DNA of 33,659 bases from Mesohalobacter salilacus. Lineage in GTDB: Bacteria > Bacteroidota > Bacteroidia > Flavobacteriales > Flavobacteriaceae. Below the pieces are notes generated by a model that had not been told where the DNA came from, did no database searches, and saw only the letters and a list, made by a program, of their open reading frames with translations. Location of the stretch: contig RRZV01000035.1 of the NCBI GenBank assembly GCA_003931895.1, positions 1 to 33,659 on the forward strand, written 5' to 3'. Within the stretch, counting starts at the first letter, position 1, and every line of letters starts with the position of its first letter. This document shows, one piece after another, positions 1,444-6,154 of the stretch. The position numbers and the translations under genes were made by a program.

Positions 1444-2535
1444 TTATTTTTTACCTTCTGTCAAAACTTTATGTTGATGTGCGATGGATTCTTGGTGGAT
1501 AGCTTTTAAAAATTTAGTCACAAACTCCTCACTTAAACCGTTGTCTTGGCCTTCGTTTATCATTTTGTCTAAAACTTCATTCCAGCGTTTGGTTTGCAAA
1601 ATGGCGACGTTGTTTTTCTTTTTCAAGGCACCAATATCGTCAGCAATTTTCATTCGCTTACCCAATTGATTGATGATTTGATGGTCAACCACATCAATTT
1701 TGGTTCTGAGTGTGTTCAATTTATTTTTAAATTCAGCGGCTTCGCCGTGTTCTTTTCTGATTTTTAAATCTTCAGTCATTTGGTCTAAAGCTTCGGGTGT
1801 GATTTGTTGAGCAGCATCACTCCAAGCTTCATCCGGCGTATGGTGGGTTTCTACCATAATGCCATCGTAATTTAAATCTAAAGCGGTTTGGCAAATATCA
1901 AAAATAATATCGCGTCGTCCAGCGATATGCGATGGATCGACAATTAAAGGCAAATCTGGAAATTCATTTTGTAAATCTACCGCCAATTGCCATTCGGGAT
2001 TGTTTCTGTATCGGGTTTTTTCGTAAGTTGAAAAACCGCGATGAATGACCCCAAGATTTTGAATATCAGCTTTATGTAAGCGTTCTACGGCGCCGAGCCA
2101 AAGTGGTAAATCCGGATTAACAGGGTTTTTGACCAATACAATTTTATCTGTGCCTTGAAGCGCATCGGCGATATCTTGAACGATAAATGGACTCACTGTG
2201 CTTCGCGCGCCAATCCATAAAACGTCAACATCTGCTTCAAGTGCTAACTCCACATGGGTTTTGTTGGCCACTTCGGTAGCGATTTTAAGTCCGGTTTCGG
2301 CTTTGGCTTTTTTGAGCCAATCCAGACCTATTTTGCCCACACCTTCAAAATTGCCCGGTTTAGTTCTAGGCTTCCAAATACCAGCTCGCATAACTGTTGT
2401 ATCAGTATTTTTGAGTTGATGGGCAATTTTAAGCACTTGCTCTTCGGTTTCTGCACTACAAGGTCCTGCAATCACCAGAGGATGCTCAAGATTAAAAGCT
2501 TCGAGCCAGTTTTTAAATGATTTTTGATTTGTCAT
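1444..2535 (-). CDS. Bifunctional DAHP synthase / chorismate mutase
   Basis: This 363-residue protein joins the first shikimate-pathway step (phosphoenolpyruvate plus erythrose 4-phosphate to DAHP) to chorismate mutase (chorismate to prephenate). The N-terminal part is a KDO8P-synthase-like type I barrel with GPCS at residues 24-27, KPRT at 55-58 and a DPSH metal/substrate motif near residue 200. The last 90 or so residues form an AroQ-type helical mutase: LRTKIDVVDHQIINQLGKRM, ADDIGALKKK and a C-terminal QESIAHQ. Synthase-first with the mutase at the C-terminus is the usual Bacteroidota arrangement. It is the last gene of the aromatic operon, 10 nt after tyrA. The mutase domain may make the synthase sensitive to prephenate or chorismate, as in fused homologues; that is inference. 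Confidence 0.95.
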   Translation of the reverse strand: MTNQKSFKNWLEAFNLEHPLVIAGPCSAETEEQVLKIAHQLKNTDTTVMRAGIWKPRTKPGNFEGVGKIGLDWLKKAKAETGLKIATEVANKTHVELALEADVDVLWIGARSTVSPFIVQDIADALQGTDKIVLVKNPVNPDLPLWLGAVERLHKADIQNLGVIHRGFSTYEKTRYRNNPEWQLAVDLQNEFPDLPLIVDPSHIAGRRDIIFDICQTALDLNYDGIMVETHHTPDEAWSDAAQQITPEALDQMTEDLKIRKEHGEAAEFKNKLNTLRTKIDVVDHQIINQLGKRMKIADDIGALKKKNNVAILQTKRWNEVLDKMINEGQDNGLSEEFVTKFLKAIHQESIAHQHKVLTEGKK

Positions 2536-2545
2536 AATTTATGGT

Positions 2546-3400
2546 TTATATGTGAATACCTTTTAAAATGTCTTTTACGATATTGGTATTGTTCATGTCT
2601 TTATATAATTGTTCAAAATCGTCTTGTTTTAAAGCGGTTTCAAAATTTTTCAAATTATGGATATATTCTGATAAGGCTTCCAAAACAAATGTTTTATTTT
2701 GTTTAAAAATAGGCGTCCAGGTTTGTGGATTACTTTTGGCTAACCTTACGGTAGATTCAAATCCACTGCCTGCCAAGTCAAAAATATTCCGTTCGTTTTC
2801 TTCTTTGTCGATTACCGTTTTGCCCAACATAAACGAGCTGATATGTGATAAATGCGAGACATAAGCCATGTGTTTGTTGTGTGCCACGGGATTCATATAT
2901 CTCAATTTCATCTGCATGTTTTCAAAACATTGAATAGCCCGTTGCTGAAGTTTTAAATTGGTTTTTTCGACTTCACAAACAATCATAGTTTTATGATCAA
3001 ACAACTCTGCAAAAGCGGCTTGAGGTCCAGAAAATTCGGTTCCAGCTATGGGATGCGTCGCCATAAATTGATCGCGTTTGGGGTGATTTTTCAAATACGC
3101 ACAAAGTTTAGCTTTGGTTGAACCCGTGTCGATGACTAAAGTTTTTGGACCGATTTGATCTAATAGTTGTTCAATAACATTTGGCGCAACATCAACGGGA
3201 ATGCTTACAATCACCAAATCTGCATTTTTAAAATCTTCCTGTTGAACTTGTCTTGAGATGATACCCAAATCAATGGCTTTTTTTAAATGCTGGGAATTGG
3301 TGTCTTGACCTAAAAATTCTACCTCTGGCCAAAAGCGTTTTAAACTCAATAACATAGAGCCACCTATTAAACCTAATCCTATGCCTATGATTTTTTTCAT
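2546..3400 (-). CDS. tyrA: Prephenate dehydrogenase
   Basis: This 284-residue enzyme oxidatively decarboxylates prephenate to 4-hydroxyphenylpyruvate in tyrosine synthesis, using NAD(P). The Rossmann motif GIGLGLIGGSM opens the protein at residues 6-16. The TyrA signatures VIVSIPVDVAP, DTGSTK, THPIAGTEFSGPQAA and an SHLSHISSFML helix follow. The length fits the single-domain TyrA without mutase or ACT domain; mutase activity comes from the next gene. Its ATG overlaps the stop of the aminotransferase gene by 4 nt (ATGA), which indicates translational coupling. I see nothing abnormal in the sequence. Confidence 0.95.
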   Translation of the reverse strand: MKKIIGIGLGLIGGSMLLSLKRFWPEVEFLGQDTNSQHLKKAIDLGIISRQVQQEDFKNADLVIVSIPVDVAPNVIEQLLDQIGPKTLVIDTGSTKAKLCAYLKNHPKRDQFMATHPIAGTEFSGPQAAFAELFDHKTMIVCEVEKTNLKLQQRAIQCFENMQMKLRYMNPVAHNKHMAYVSHLSHISSFMLGKTVIDKEENERNIFDLAGSGFESTVRLAKSNPQTWTPIFKQNKTFVLEALSEYIHNLKNFETALKQDDFEQLYKDMNNTNIVKDILKGIHI

Positions 3401-4554
3401 GCTTTAAAATGTTTTGTGCGTTCTAAACACGTCATTAATTCGCCTTGACTCACACAAAGTGAAAACCTTAAATAGCCTTGTCCTTGAGAACCAAAGACAT
3501 CACCAGGCGTAACAAACATATTATAATCGTGAAGTAAAATATCTGATAAAGTTTTCGCAGAAAATTGAGACTGAATTTTTGCCCAAACAAAAAGACCTGA
3601 GCTATTTTTATCATAGGTCAATTGAAGCTGATCACAGATTTGCCAAACCAAATCTCGTCGTTTTGAATAAGTGTCGTTGAGGTGTTGATACCATTCTGAT
3701 GATAATTGAAGTGCTTTTTCGCCACCTTTTTGAATCGGGTAAAACATCCCGCTATCCATATTCGATTTTACTTTTATGACTTGTTTTAATAATTCTTGAT
3801 GACCGCAAAGCATACCGACTCTCCAGCCAGCCATATTGAAGGTTTTGCTTAAAGAATTGAGTTCTAAAACGTGATCATTAGGCCATTGATGCTTTAAAAT
3901 ACTAAAAGGTTTATCATTGAGAATTAAGCTATACGGATTGTCATTGACCAATAAAATATTATTTTCTTTGGCAAACTTTACAAGTTTATCAATGGTTTCA
4001 TCATCAGCTTTAGCTCCCGTAGGCATATGTGGATAATTGATCCACATCAATTTGGTTTTTGGTGTTATCAGTTTTGAAAGCTGTCCAATATCCGGCTGCC
4101 AGTTGTGGTTTTCTTTTAAGTCGTAATACAAAGTTTTGGCTTGAACCAAACCCGAAACAGCAGCATAGGTTGGATAACCTGGATTTGGCACCAAAACTTC
4201 ATCGCCAGGATTGAGAAACGCCATAGAAATATGCATAATACCTTCTTTACTGCCTATAAGCGGTAAAATTTGATTGTTTGCAGACAATTGAACGTCGTAA
4301 GTTTTATCGTAAAAGCTTTTGATGGCCCCACGTAAACTCGGAATTCCTGCATAAGGCTGATATTGATGCGCTTTGTTGTGCGATGTTGCTTTAATCATGG
4401 TTTCAACAACAGATTTAGGCGGATTGATGTCTGGCGATCCAATGCCAAGGTTGATAATGGGTTTACCATCATCTATAAGCTGCTTAACTTCTTTCAATTT
4501 TTTGGAGAAGTAATATTCTTTGGTTTGAGCTAAACGGTCTGCAGATTTTATCAT
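3397..4554 (-). CDS. PLP-dependent aminotransferase of the aromatic operon
   Basis: This 385-residue fold-type I, class I/II aminotransferase carries INLGIGSPDINPP near the N-terminus, DNPYSLIL for cofactor binding and SLSKTFNMAGWRVGM, where the lysine near residue 236 is the Schiff-base residue. A C-terminal RFSLC segment supplies the carboxylate-binding arginine. Sequence style is that of the DapL/AspC-like aminotransferases annotated in Bacteroidota aromatic operons. From its place between prephenate dehydratase and prephenate dehydrogenase, I infer that it transaminates phenylpyruvate and 4-hydroxyphenylpyruvate (or prephenate itself) to give Phe and Tyr. It overlaps both neighbours by 4 nt. 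Substrate specificity cannot be read from the sequence. Confidence 0.9.
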   Translation of the reverse strand: MIKSADRLAQTKEYYFSKKLKEVKQLIDDGKPIINLGIGSPDINPPKSVVETMIKATSHNKAHQYQPYAGIPSLRGAIKSFYDKTYDVQLSANNQILPLIGSKEGIMHISMAFLNPGDEVLVPNPGYPTYAAVSGLVQAKTLYYDLKENHNWQPDIGQLSKLITPKTKLMWINYPHMPTGAKADDETIDKLVKFAKENNILLVNDNPYSLILNDKPFSILKHQWPNDHVLELNSLSKTFNMAGWRVGMLCGHQELLKQVIKVKSNMDSGMFYPIQKGGEKALQLSSEWYQHLNDTYSKRRDLVWQICDQLQLTYDKNSSGLFVWAKIQSQFSAKTLSDILLHDYNMFVTPGDVFGSQGQGYLRFSLCVSQGELMTCLERTKHFKA

Positions 4555-5378
4555 TTTTGAGCTTGTTTATAAATTCCGAGGAGTTTAAAATGATGTGTGA
4601 TTGATTTTAGTCTTTTAACTAAATTTTCAAAATCTATTTCGGGTAAAAAAATCATATCTACATAAAACGCATAATTCCATTTAGAAAGAGGCGTTGGAAT
4701 AGACTGAATTTTGGTCATATTGATGTCATAGTCTTGCAGCAAAGCCAACACTTTAAACAAACTTCCCGGCTCGTGAGCCAATTCAAATCGGATTGAAGCT
4801 TTATCGGCAAACTTGTTTGGAAAGGCCTCTAAGTTTCTTTCAACTTTCACAAAACGTGTGGAGTTAAGGTCGTTGTCTTGGATATGAGATTTCAAAACTT
4901 GTAAACCAAATAACTCAGCCGTACCGTCTGGCACTATGGCTGCGGTATGTGAAATTTGTTTTTCGGCAATAATTTGTGCAGGTAAGGCGGTGTCTACGTC
5001 TTCAACCAATTTAAAGTTTTTTTGTTGGTATAAAAAATCACCACATTGTAAGAAAGCCATTTGGTGAGAGTTTACGGTTTTAATATCTTCTAATATTTGA
5101 CCTTTTAAGGCAACTAGATTGTGTTTGATGTCTAAATAATATTCTGCTGTGATTTTTAAATCATGGTCACCAATTAAGGTGTAATTGGGTAAAATACTGC
5201 CAGCAATAGAATTTTCTATCGCCATGATACCGTAATCAACGTCATTAGCCATGATGGATTTTACCAAATTATTAAAACTCATACAAGCTTTGATTTCAGC
5301 TTGTTTTGAAATAAAATCACATACCACTTTATGGTGGTTTGAGCCTTTTATGCCTTGAATGGCGATGCGTTCAGTCAT
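4551..5378 (-). CDS. pheA: Prephenate dehydratase
   Basis: This 275-residue enzyme converts prephenate to phenylpyruvate for phenylalanine synthesis. The catalytic part has GIKGSNHHKV at the start, AIENSIAGSI for substrate binding, LNSTRFVKVER with the catalytic Thr-Arg-Phe triad, and a C-terminal ACT domain (FELAHEPGSLFKVLALLQ, then a QSIP/WNYAFYVD segment) that normally senses phenylalanine. The length matches a monofunctional dehydratase plus ACT. It is the first structural gene of the operon and lies 72 nt after the stop of the leader peptide, directly behind the attenuator terminator. So it is likely controlled twice: by attenuation, and by Phe feedback through ACT (the second inferred from family). 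Confidence 0.95.
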   Translation of the reverse strand: MTERIAIQGIKGSNHHKVVCDFISKQAEIKACMSFNNLVKSIMANDVDYGIMAIENSIAGSILPNYTLIGDHDLKITAEYYLDIKHNLVALKGQILEDIKTVNSHQMAFLQCGDFLYQQKNFKLVEDVDTALPAQIIAEKQISHTAAIVPDGTAELFGLQVLKSHIQDNDLNSTRFVKVERNLEAFPNKFADKASIRFELAHEPGSLFKVLALLQDYDINMTKIQSIPTPLSKWNYAFYVDMIFLPEIDFENLVKRLKSITHHFKLLGIYKQAQK

Positions 5379-5393
5379 GCTTTAGTTTTAATC

Positions 5394-5421
5394 AAAAAAA
5401 AATCCCGAAACAGGTTCGGGA
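5394..5421 (-). terminator. Attenuator terminator upstream of pheA
   Basis: Read on the minus strand, TCCCGAA (5421-5415) pairs perfectly with TTCGGGA (5409-5403) around a 5-nt loop, followed by nine T residues (5402-5394). It lies between the leader peptide and the pheA start, so it cannot end an upstream gene on this strand; none exists within the region. This is the expected position of an attenuator. Confidence 0.85.
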
Positions 5422-5464
5422 CTTTATTTATAAATATTGTTAAAAATTTTCAACAACAGTCCCG
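5417..5464 (-). promoter_or_regulatory. Antiterminator of the aromatic operon
   Basis: On the minus strand CGGGACT (5464-5458), which encodes the end of the leader peptide, is complementary to AGTCCCG (5423-5417). The latter contains most of the 5' arm of the terminator, so the two structures exclude each other. A nested stem, TTGTTGAA against TTTTAACAA, strengthens it. A ribosome finishing the leader ORF would cover CGGGACT and let the terminator form. A ribosome stalled earlier would leave it free. Confidence 0.75.
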
Positions 5465-5521
5465 TATGCTTTTAAAATAAGCATAATAAAAACCGTTCCA
5501 GAAAAAAGTGTTTGTTTTCAT
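5450..5521 (-). CDS. Aromatic amino-acid leader peptide
   Basis: A 23-codon ORF starts ATG at 5521 and stops TGA at 5450-5452, just upstream of the attenuator of the Phe/Tyr operon. Its middle carries FFW at residues 6-8 and FYYAYF at 11-16: eight of eleven consecutive residues are Phe, Tyr or Trp. That density is far above chance and fits a sensor of aromatic aminoacyl-tRNA. A 7-bp hairpin, TATGCTT with AAGCATA (5485-5465), overlaps the Tyr/Phe codons and could be the pause structure. The ORF ends inside the antiterminator. The peptide itself probably has no function after translation. Its size kept it below usual gene-calling cut-offs. Confidence 0.85.
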   Translation of the reverse strand: MKTNTFFWNGFYYAYFKSIRDCC

Positions 5522-5531
5522 AATCAGTGGG

Positions 5532-5562
5532 CTAAATTAGACATAAAATTTAATTGACCAAA
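5532..5562 (-). promoter_or_regulatory. Promoter of the aromatic operon
   Basis: On the minus strand TTTG (5562-5559) is followed after 19 nt by TAATTTAG (5539-5532), one mismatch from TAnnTTTG. The spacing matches the Bacteroidota sigma-factor consensus. Transcription should begin near 5525, only a few bases before the leader-peptide ATG at 5521, so the leader may be read from a nearly leaderless transcript. Confidence 0.6.
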
Positions 5563-5617
5563 TAATTTTGTTGAAAATTCAAATTTCAAATAGGTTTATA
5601 AAAGCGATCTGTAAGTT

Positions 5618-6154
5618 TTAAGTATACTCCGGAACTTTACCAATGGCGTGACTAAAAAACGCTTGAATGTGTCTCAAATCTTTTTCGTAGTTTTCAGTGA
5701 TGTAAAACGGCTCTGATATAGAAACAGTTTTCGACGCATAATCAAAAGCGACACAGGTTATGGGGACATGAGCGTTTTTAGCGATGTAATAAAAACCTGA
5801 CTTCCAAGTGTTGACTTTTTTTCTAGTTCCTTCTGGGGTGATAGCTAATCGGAATTCATTTTTAGCATTAAAAATATCAACAATTTGATCGACTTTATTT
5901 TGTGAAGACGACCGGTCTATGGGTTCTCCACCCATCCATTTAAAATACCATCCAAATGCAGAGTCAAATAATTCCTTTTTGGCTACATAATGTATTGGAA
6001 CATTAATAATTTTTCTTGCCAATGCACCGATATAAAAATCATGCCAGCTTGTATGTGGTGCTACTACAACAACTGTCTTTTTAACCTCTGGCGAAAATTG
6101 TCCTTTAATTTTCCAACCTAATAAGTATTTAAAAAATAATTTTGCTAAAAGCAT
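5618..6154 (-). CDS. Lysophospholipid acyltransferase family protein
   Basis: This 178-residue protein belongs to the PlsC-like acyltransferases, which transfer an acyl chain to a glycerolipid or related acceptor at the inner membrane. The catalytic block reads APHTSWHDF, giving the H-x4-D motif near residues 33-38, and the second block is ITPEGTRKK, matching the EGTR substrate-phosphate motif. The short length and the GGEPIDRS segment resemble the compact forms common in Flavobacteriia rather than a full PlsC of about 240 residues. It is divergently oriented from the next gene and not part of the aromatic operon. The acceptor cannot be deduced; phospholipid remodelling is the family expectation. 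Confidence 0.85.
   Translation of the reverse strand: MLLAKLFFKYLLGWKIKGQFSPEVKKTVVVVAPHTSWHDFYIGALARKIINVPIHYVAKKELFDSAFGWYFKWMGGEPIDRSSSQNKVDQIVDIFNAKNEFRLAITPEGTRKKVNTWKSGFYYIAKNAHVPITCVAFDYASKTVSISEPFYITENYEKDLRHIQAFFSHAIGKVPEYT

Follow-up and report, generated by a model that had tools for sequence, protein, structure and literature searches.

A conserved, probable leader-peptide attenuator before pheA in Mesohalobacter salilacus and other Bacteroidota

Results

A probable leader-peptide attenuator before the pheA operon

The pheA leader of Mesohalobacter salilacus is real, well conserved and ordinary in principle, and it is well supported as a leader-peptide attenuator. Judged from the sequence, we regard it as very probable that this element is a ribosome-mediated transcription attenuator which controls the Phe/Tyr operon, and regulation by it is predicted here. 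By direct reading, the whole element runs on the minus strand from 5562 to 5394 of the window (the complete stretch of 33,659 nucleotides that was analysed). Its parts, their conservation, their mutually exclusive pairings and their spacing were established by sequence and comparison, as described below.

The genes behind the leader all lie on the minus strand. The first, pheA (4551..5378), encodes a prephenate dehydratase with an ACT domain (PF00800, E 7.9e-49). It overlaps by 4 nt a class I/II aminotransferase gene (3397..4554; PF00155, with NCBIfam models below their cut-off), which in turn overlaps by 4 nt the prephenate dehydrogenase gene tyrA (2546..3400; NF006307 over its cut-off, and PF02153). 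A gene for DAHP synthase fused to chorismate mutase follows (1444..2535; PF00793 and PF01817). According to the Pfam and NCBIfam matches, these genes serve Phe and Tyr synthesis. Because the genes from pheA to that of DAHP synthase either overlap by 4 nt or lie 10 nt apart, they very likely constitute one Phe/Tyr operon.

The promoter consists of a -33 element, TTTG (5559..5562), and a -7 element, TAATTTAG (5532..5539), which resembles the TAnnTTTG sigma-A box. The two are separated by 19 nt, as an earlier reading of the letters alone (hereafter the sequence-only reading) had claimed and direct reading of the minus strand confirmed, and TAATTTAG lies 10 nt from the leader ORF. Setting the box at -12 to -5, its placement in a report on F. 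psychrophilum (PMC9723704), predicts a transcription start near 5527 and hence about 6 nt of 5'UTR ahead of the leader in this species. The median 5'UTR of 24 given there for F. psychrophilum is longer than this prediction. Among 140 leaders of relatives and the window (described below), TAnnTTWG stood 8-24 nt ahead of an in-frame ATG, GTG or TTG in 117, a count made without shuffle control, and its commonest distances to the start codon were 10 and 16-19 nt. Inspection by eye, without a count, showed TTTG or TTG similarly spaced in many relatives. Also by eye, the -7 boxes of the relatives are mostly TAnnTTAG, compared with the TAnnTTTG consensus.

The leader ORF, MKTNTFFWNGFYYAYFKSIRDCC (5450..5521), has 23 codons from the ATG at 5521 to the TGA at 5452-5450. 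Eight of the 23 codons are aromatic, including the FFW and FYYAYF runs that had been noticed before, and the frame, the start and the aromatic codons are conserved.

Three mutually exclusive helices (computed) follow from the folding of the window sequence. Helix 1:2 covers the Phe/Tyr codons (5457..5495; -10.2 kcal/mol, z -3.8). Its inner part is a 7-bp hairpin of TATGCTT and AAGCATA (5485-5479 with 5471-5465), the pause hairpin on the Tyr/Phe codons that the sequence-only reading had proposed. It is refined here as part of a larger helix: the outer part (5495-5489 with 5463-5457) reaches into the antiterminator arm, and helix 1:2 hence competes with helix 2:3. A version in which the pause hairpin adjoined the arm without overlap was rejected as an artefact of folding a stretch that ended at the arm; when folding was carried to the arm's end, at least 3 arm nucleotides were paired upstream in 112 of 137 leaders. 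The arm itself, CGGGACT (region 2, 5458..5464), overlaps the last leader codons and pairs with AGTCCCG (5423-5417). This outer stem, together with an inner hairpin, makes up the antiterminator 2:3 (5417..5464; -16.3 kcal/mol, z -4.0). The intrinsic terminator 3:4 (5399..5425; -12.5 kcal/mol, z -4.0) has a stem of 7 bp, extendable to 11 with A-U pairs, and ends in a tract of nine T (5394..5402), with the pheA ATG 15 nt beyond. Both the pairing of CGGGACT with AGTCCCG to the exclusion of the terminator and the perfect 7-bp terminator with nine T before pheA had been asserted earlier, and both held at these positions.

Conservation among relatives

For comparison we used 148 pheA upstream regions from the same order, comprising those of 40 genomes matched among 60 (our own included) and 108 from the same family; the latter were drawn from the best matches listed for 268 genomes, and the set leans to closer relatives. 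In an automatic test, which looked for a leader containing five or more aromatic codons together with a terminator and an arm, 140 of the 148 regions passed; arm pairing contributed to the score by which the terminator was selected, and the arm was itself selected by pairing. A strict test required six or more aromatic codons in the leader, at a share of no less than 25%, as well as a terminator and a complementary arm. It was passed by 131 of the 148 regions compared with 0 of 1480 dinucleotide shuffles of those regions, and by 0 of 2000 dinucleotide shuffles of the window's own region. Among the eight regions that failed the automatic test, one (L100) has a leader by eye and another (L107) has its terminator about 240 nt upstream. 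In two (L039 and L040) the match started inside the gene and less upstream DNA was covered, and four (L030, L071, L117 and L135) have no element within 320 nt upstream of pheA.

Aligning the pheA upstream regions of relatives and looking for covariation had been recommended in the sequence-only reading. Across Flavobacteriaceae, the small ORF, its Phe/Tyr codons and the stems proved to be conserved, and compensatory changes were found in both the terminator and the antiterminator.

The idea that the element is confined to Flavobacteriaceae was dropped, as aromatic leaders also occur in other Bacteroidia. In named genomes (Flavobacterium, Maribacter, Tenacibaculum, Winogradskyella, Chitinophaga and others) a looser test found an aromatic uORF at 78 of 80 loci; one of the two misses had no upstream DNA, and one match (L181) gave an atypical ORF. 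When 119 class-level genomes were searched, 31 had a prephenate dehydratase, of which 22 showed an aromatic leader, one was doubtful and eight showed none. Outside the class, 4 of 14 regions from the phylum (G408, G470, G359 and G492) carry an aromatic leader and 10 do not.

Judging from the Pfam search, with matches in 31 of 119, prephenate dehydratase seems to be undetectable in many members of the class, and a class-wide PheA profile search gave matches in 65 of 247 genomes. Within the genus, PheA was unmatched in 7 of 26 relatives (G003, G016, G018, G019, G020, G022 and G023), six of which are listed as at least 99% complete. Possibly these seven are Phe auxotrophs, use a different enzyme or represent missed matches.

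Codon content of the leaders

The aromatic fraction was 0.41 in frame 0 of the leaders versus 0.14 and 0.18 in the other frames. Phe was present in all 140 leaders, Tyr in 139 and Trp in 86, so that Phe and Tyr occur together in 139 of 140. The peptides vary widely among relatives outside the aromatic run. A set of 37 aligned leaders (type A) shares the consensus MTKQYFWNGFYFYFFFKRGTGLL and has very similar peptides. Within their aromatic block, variation by codon position was 0.029, 0.077 and 0.167, i.e. mostly at the third position; in the 14 rows of type B, third positions are no more variable than the others. The open frame, the start codon and the type A pattern would fit a translated leader, while the type B rows lack that pattern.

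Codon 7 of the type A leaders is Trp in 23, Phe in 8 and Tyr in 6 (n=37). As the motifs which define the type A set and the tree rows partly favour an aromatic residue in this slot, we recounted leaders picked without any slot condition, and the slot was aromatic in 42 of 44 (24 Trp, 9 Phe, 9 Tyr). The two exceptions (one Asn, one Thr) look either shifted by one codon or like members of the other leader type. When mapped onto a tree of 45 PheA rows, the slot requires a minimum of 7 switches between Trp and Phe/Tyr, and a minimum of 11 when all three residues are told apart; the rows were 46 picked by motif less one doubtful case (L064), and the tree was built by a quick method that leaves 16 of 42 inner branches open. 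Since a change from Trp to Phe or Tyr requires at least two base changes, the slot seems to be kept aromatic rather than kept as Trp. The suggestion that one leader may sense more than one aromatic tRNA thereby gains comparative support from the 42 of 44 aromatic slots and the at least 7 switches.

Selection and covariation in the helices

The helices were compared over 137 leaders (the 140 minus 3 with odd spacing). In 134 of 137, helix 1:2 is more stable than its synonymous-codon shuffles; the extent to which it pairs into the arm lies above the synonymous mean in 100 of 137. Pairing of the arm with its own region 3 scored 17.5 versus 13.7 when permuted among species, a value reached by 0 of 2000 permutations, although part of this difference arises by construction (terminator and arm selection) and relatedness is also a caveat.

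The 137 gave 82 non-redundant segments of up to 115 nt, of which 65 entered a joint alignment (A2) and 17 were excluded by hand before counting. In these 65 rows the terminator is paired in 99.6% of cells, and cells changed on both sides number 41 versus 7.8 in shuffles; versions of the terminator slid along the alignment reach at most 58.4% paired and 10 both-side cells. The antiterminator is paired in only 76.5% of cells, with all 7 of its pairs changed on both sides at least once, compared with 60.2% paired and 25 both-side cells when slid by +1. Its register differs between rows: 17 of the 65 pair better one column over, where most of their pairs hold in their own register, and one row pairs better one column the other way.

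Spacing, folding and the proposed mechanism

In 101 of 137 leaders, 12-14 nt separate the first base of the last aromatic codon from the start of the antiterminator arm. This spacing has a standard deviation of 2.1, versus 5.0 for the distance to the stop codon. From the codon in its A site, a ribosome should extend some 12-13 nt downstream. Given this reach, the arm would barely escape a ribosome stalled at the last aromatic codon, and a ribosome on the stop codon would cover it.

Masked folding agreed with this arrangement. With the ribosome on the last aromatic codon and before region 4 exists, helix 2:3 formed in 137 of 137 leaders, a result that is partly by construction because the arm was picked by pairing. 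With the ribosome on the stop codon, helix 3:4 formed in 135 of 137. Without a ribosome and before region 4 exists, 2:3 formed in 82 of 137. When the full-length RNA with a stalled ribosome was folded to equilibrium, 113 of the 137 leaders contained 3:4 and 30 contained 2:3; the window's own sequence formed 3:4. The outcome must therefore be set by which helix folds when, in line with what models of attenuation assume: in view of the equilibrium preference for the terminator, the model needs 2:3 to form first and to persist long enough.

The untranslated full-length RNA (5521-5399) of the window's own sequence folded into 1:4 plus 2:3, while 135 of 137 rows formed 3:4. In the own fold, the leader codons pair with the 3' side of the terminator around helix 2:3. 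As a mechanism the 1:4 pairing was set aside, because only 2 of 137 leaders retain the antiterminator when folded free.

From these features we infer leader translation, ribosome stalling, an order of folding and a change of read-through with aromatic supply, which would work together as follows. RNA polymerase would start about 6 nt before the leader AUG, with the ribosome following. If Phe-tRNA, Tyr-tRNA (or Trp-tRNA) is uncharged, the ribosome would stall on the aromatic codons and open helix 1:2. The freed arm CGGGACT ahead of the stalled ribosome could then pair with AGTCCCG as soon as the latter is transcribed; with 2:3 in place, the terminator would come too late, and pheA and the downstream genes would be transcribed. 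If the aromatic tRNAs are charged, the ribosome would arrive at the stop codon and cover the arm, 3:4 would form, and transcription would end before pheA.

Alternative explanations

The same arrangement might be read as an arrest peptide of the TnaC kind, in which stalling would be caused by the nascent chain itself, its ligand being a free aromatic amino acid. The close similarity of the 37 peptides behind consensus MTKQYFWNGFYFYFFFKRGTGLL is in its favour. Elsewhere, however, the peptides diverge widely outside the aromatic run, the aromatic slot swaps among W, F and Y, and no feature is as tight as the spacing between the last aromatic codon and the arm. These three observations fit codon sensing better, and we consider an arrest peptide very unlikely. 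Even less probable is another type of RNA sensor (a T-box, a riboswitch or a protein-bound antiterminator) beside which the ORF would be incidental. Any antiterminator/terminator pair could serve such a sensor, yet no Rfam family, amino-acid operon leaders included, reached its gathering score in the window; the T-box covariance model gave no match at gathering there and none to E 10 for 5350-5640. The best sub-threshold Rfam matches in 5350-5640 include two leader-peptide attenuators, Thr_leader (E 0.012, 24.6 of 55 bits) and Trp_leader (E 0.041, 21.3 of 41), along with unrelated sRNAs. Moreover, conservation falls on ORF content and spacing.

A hairpin with a T tract between genes on the same strand is commonplace, and the element could in principle be a constitutive terminator or promoter spacer with a chance ORF, e.g. 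the terminator of the upstream acyltransferase gene. But that gene ends at 5618, and promoter-like boxes and the leader separate it from the terminator; the full set of features appeared in none of the 1480 shuffles, arm and terminator covary, and the conservation already contradicts this explanation, which is the least credible of the three. A ribosome-mediated attenuator, by comparison, accounts for an ORF rich in codons for the operon's products, for the computed exclusivity of 1:2, 2:3 and 3:4, and for an intrinsic terminator between leader and pheA, all of which were found here.

Tandem units and other leaders

Among 136 loci with at least 300 nt upstream, a loose test without shuffle control counted one unit in 132, none in 2 and two units in 2, in a set that holds some genomes twice (G013 appears as both L019 and L150). 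The two loci with two units are from Chitinophaga (L217 and L228), and in both of them Trp occurs in the first leader and is absent from the second. Two units in series also precede pheA in G675 (L335) and G502 (L338). Two more cases were partly read by eye, G414 (L339) for its first unit and G380 (L274) for both terminators. At L340 (G059), three Phe-rich leader/terminator units lie between 432 and 21 nt before pheA. Salmonella mgtCBR, as far as the accessible text of PMC3641672 describes it, likewise has two leader ORFs in one leader mRNA. Its units sense different signals (ATP and proline), whereas the tandem units of the relatives share their class of aromatic codons.

Elsewhere in the M. 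salilacus genome, a Trp leader, MKFNIINNWWWSYTFYMS, followed by a terminator lies before trpE (L301, contig C100), and by eye the first arm of this terminator can pair with the leader end; it is likely a trp attenuator. Before hisG (L299, contig C12) there is a short ORF, MKKQWLHFHNFLNAVKR, with two His codons, followed by a terminator with a complementary arm (by eye), which is likely a his attenuator. The ilvD upstream region of the same genome has no clear branched-chain leader.

Discussion

The element shares its plan with the enterobacterial pheA, trp and his attenuators (for the principles see PMC1183508): a leader with control codons, exclusive 1:2, 2:3 and 3:4 helices, and a terminator before the first gene of a biosynthetic operon. 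Unlike those leaders, it carries mixed Phe/Tyr/Trp codons over a joint Phe and Tyr gene run, reaches the gathering score of no Rfam leader family, and is served by a Bacteroidota promoter whose predicted start leaves a 5'UTR of about 6 nt, too short for the usual Shine-Dalgarno site.

A 2004 comparative study of attenuators reportedly touched on Bacteroidetes/Chlorobi. The sequence-only reading knew of no described Phe/Tyr leader in this lineage; earlier hints do exist in the phylum, and what stands of the statement is that a detailed description of the pheA leader was found nowhere in the literature searched, which mostly excludes subscription papers. The first hint dates from 2005, when Table 7 of PMC1173090 listed the pheA operon of Bacteroides thetaiotaomicron as preceded by a predicted attenuator. 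That operon, in the same phylum, also begins with pheA and includes the aminotransferase, DAHP synthase/chorismate mutase and tyrA genes; its entry, in the part of the source available, is a database-derived listing without a stated sensor type. Small ORFs resembling leader peptides have also been reported in B. thetaiotaomicron, with pheA unnamed in the text seen (PMC7366714). For F. psychrophilum, the accessible text of PMC9723704 (2021) reports a structured 5' element before pheA that is kept in other Flavobacteriaceae genera and has no Rfam match, as well as strong clues of leader-peptide attenuation before amino-acid operons. The gene and the family are the same as ours; for pheA that text presents neither a leader sequence nor helices, nor an analysis of codons and spacing, all of which are given here. 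The element is hence not wholly new; what is added is its breadth, the interchangeable Trp/Phe/Tyr slot and the tandem copies of two or three stages.

A broader interpretation can be offered only tentatively, and we hold it somewhat less likely to be right than wrong: an ancient pan-aromatic attenuator of Bacteroidota that pools the sensing of Phe-, Tyr- and Trp-tRNA, is near-leaderless without a Shine-Dalgarno site, and in several lineages has been multiplied to two or three serial units for one signal, where it may act as a steeper, AND-type switch. The mixed aromatic sensing and the tandem copies of relatives are the parts most worth experiment, and the latter provide a natural setting in which to ask whether attenuators in series make a metabolic response sharper.

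For annotators, the element provides a clear model of a leader that matches no Rfam family at threshold. In M. salilacus, the operon is most likely switched on only when aromatic amino acids run short. Since an attenuator of this type works only with the ribosome close behind RNA polymerase, the fact that it is kept in much of Bacteroidia points indirectly to coupled transcription and translation in this phylum, whose promoters are unusual and which makes little use of Shine-Dalgarno sites.
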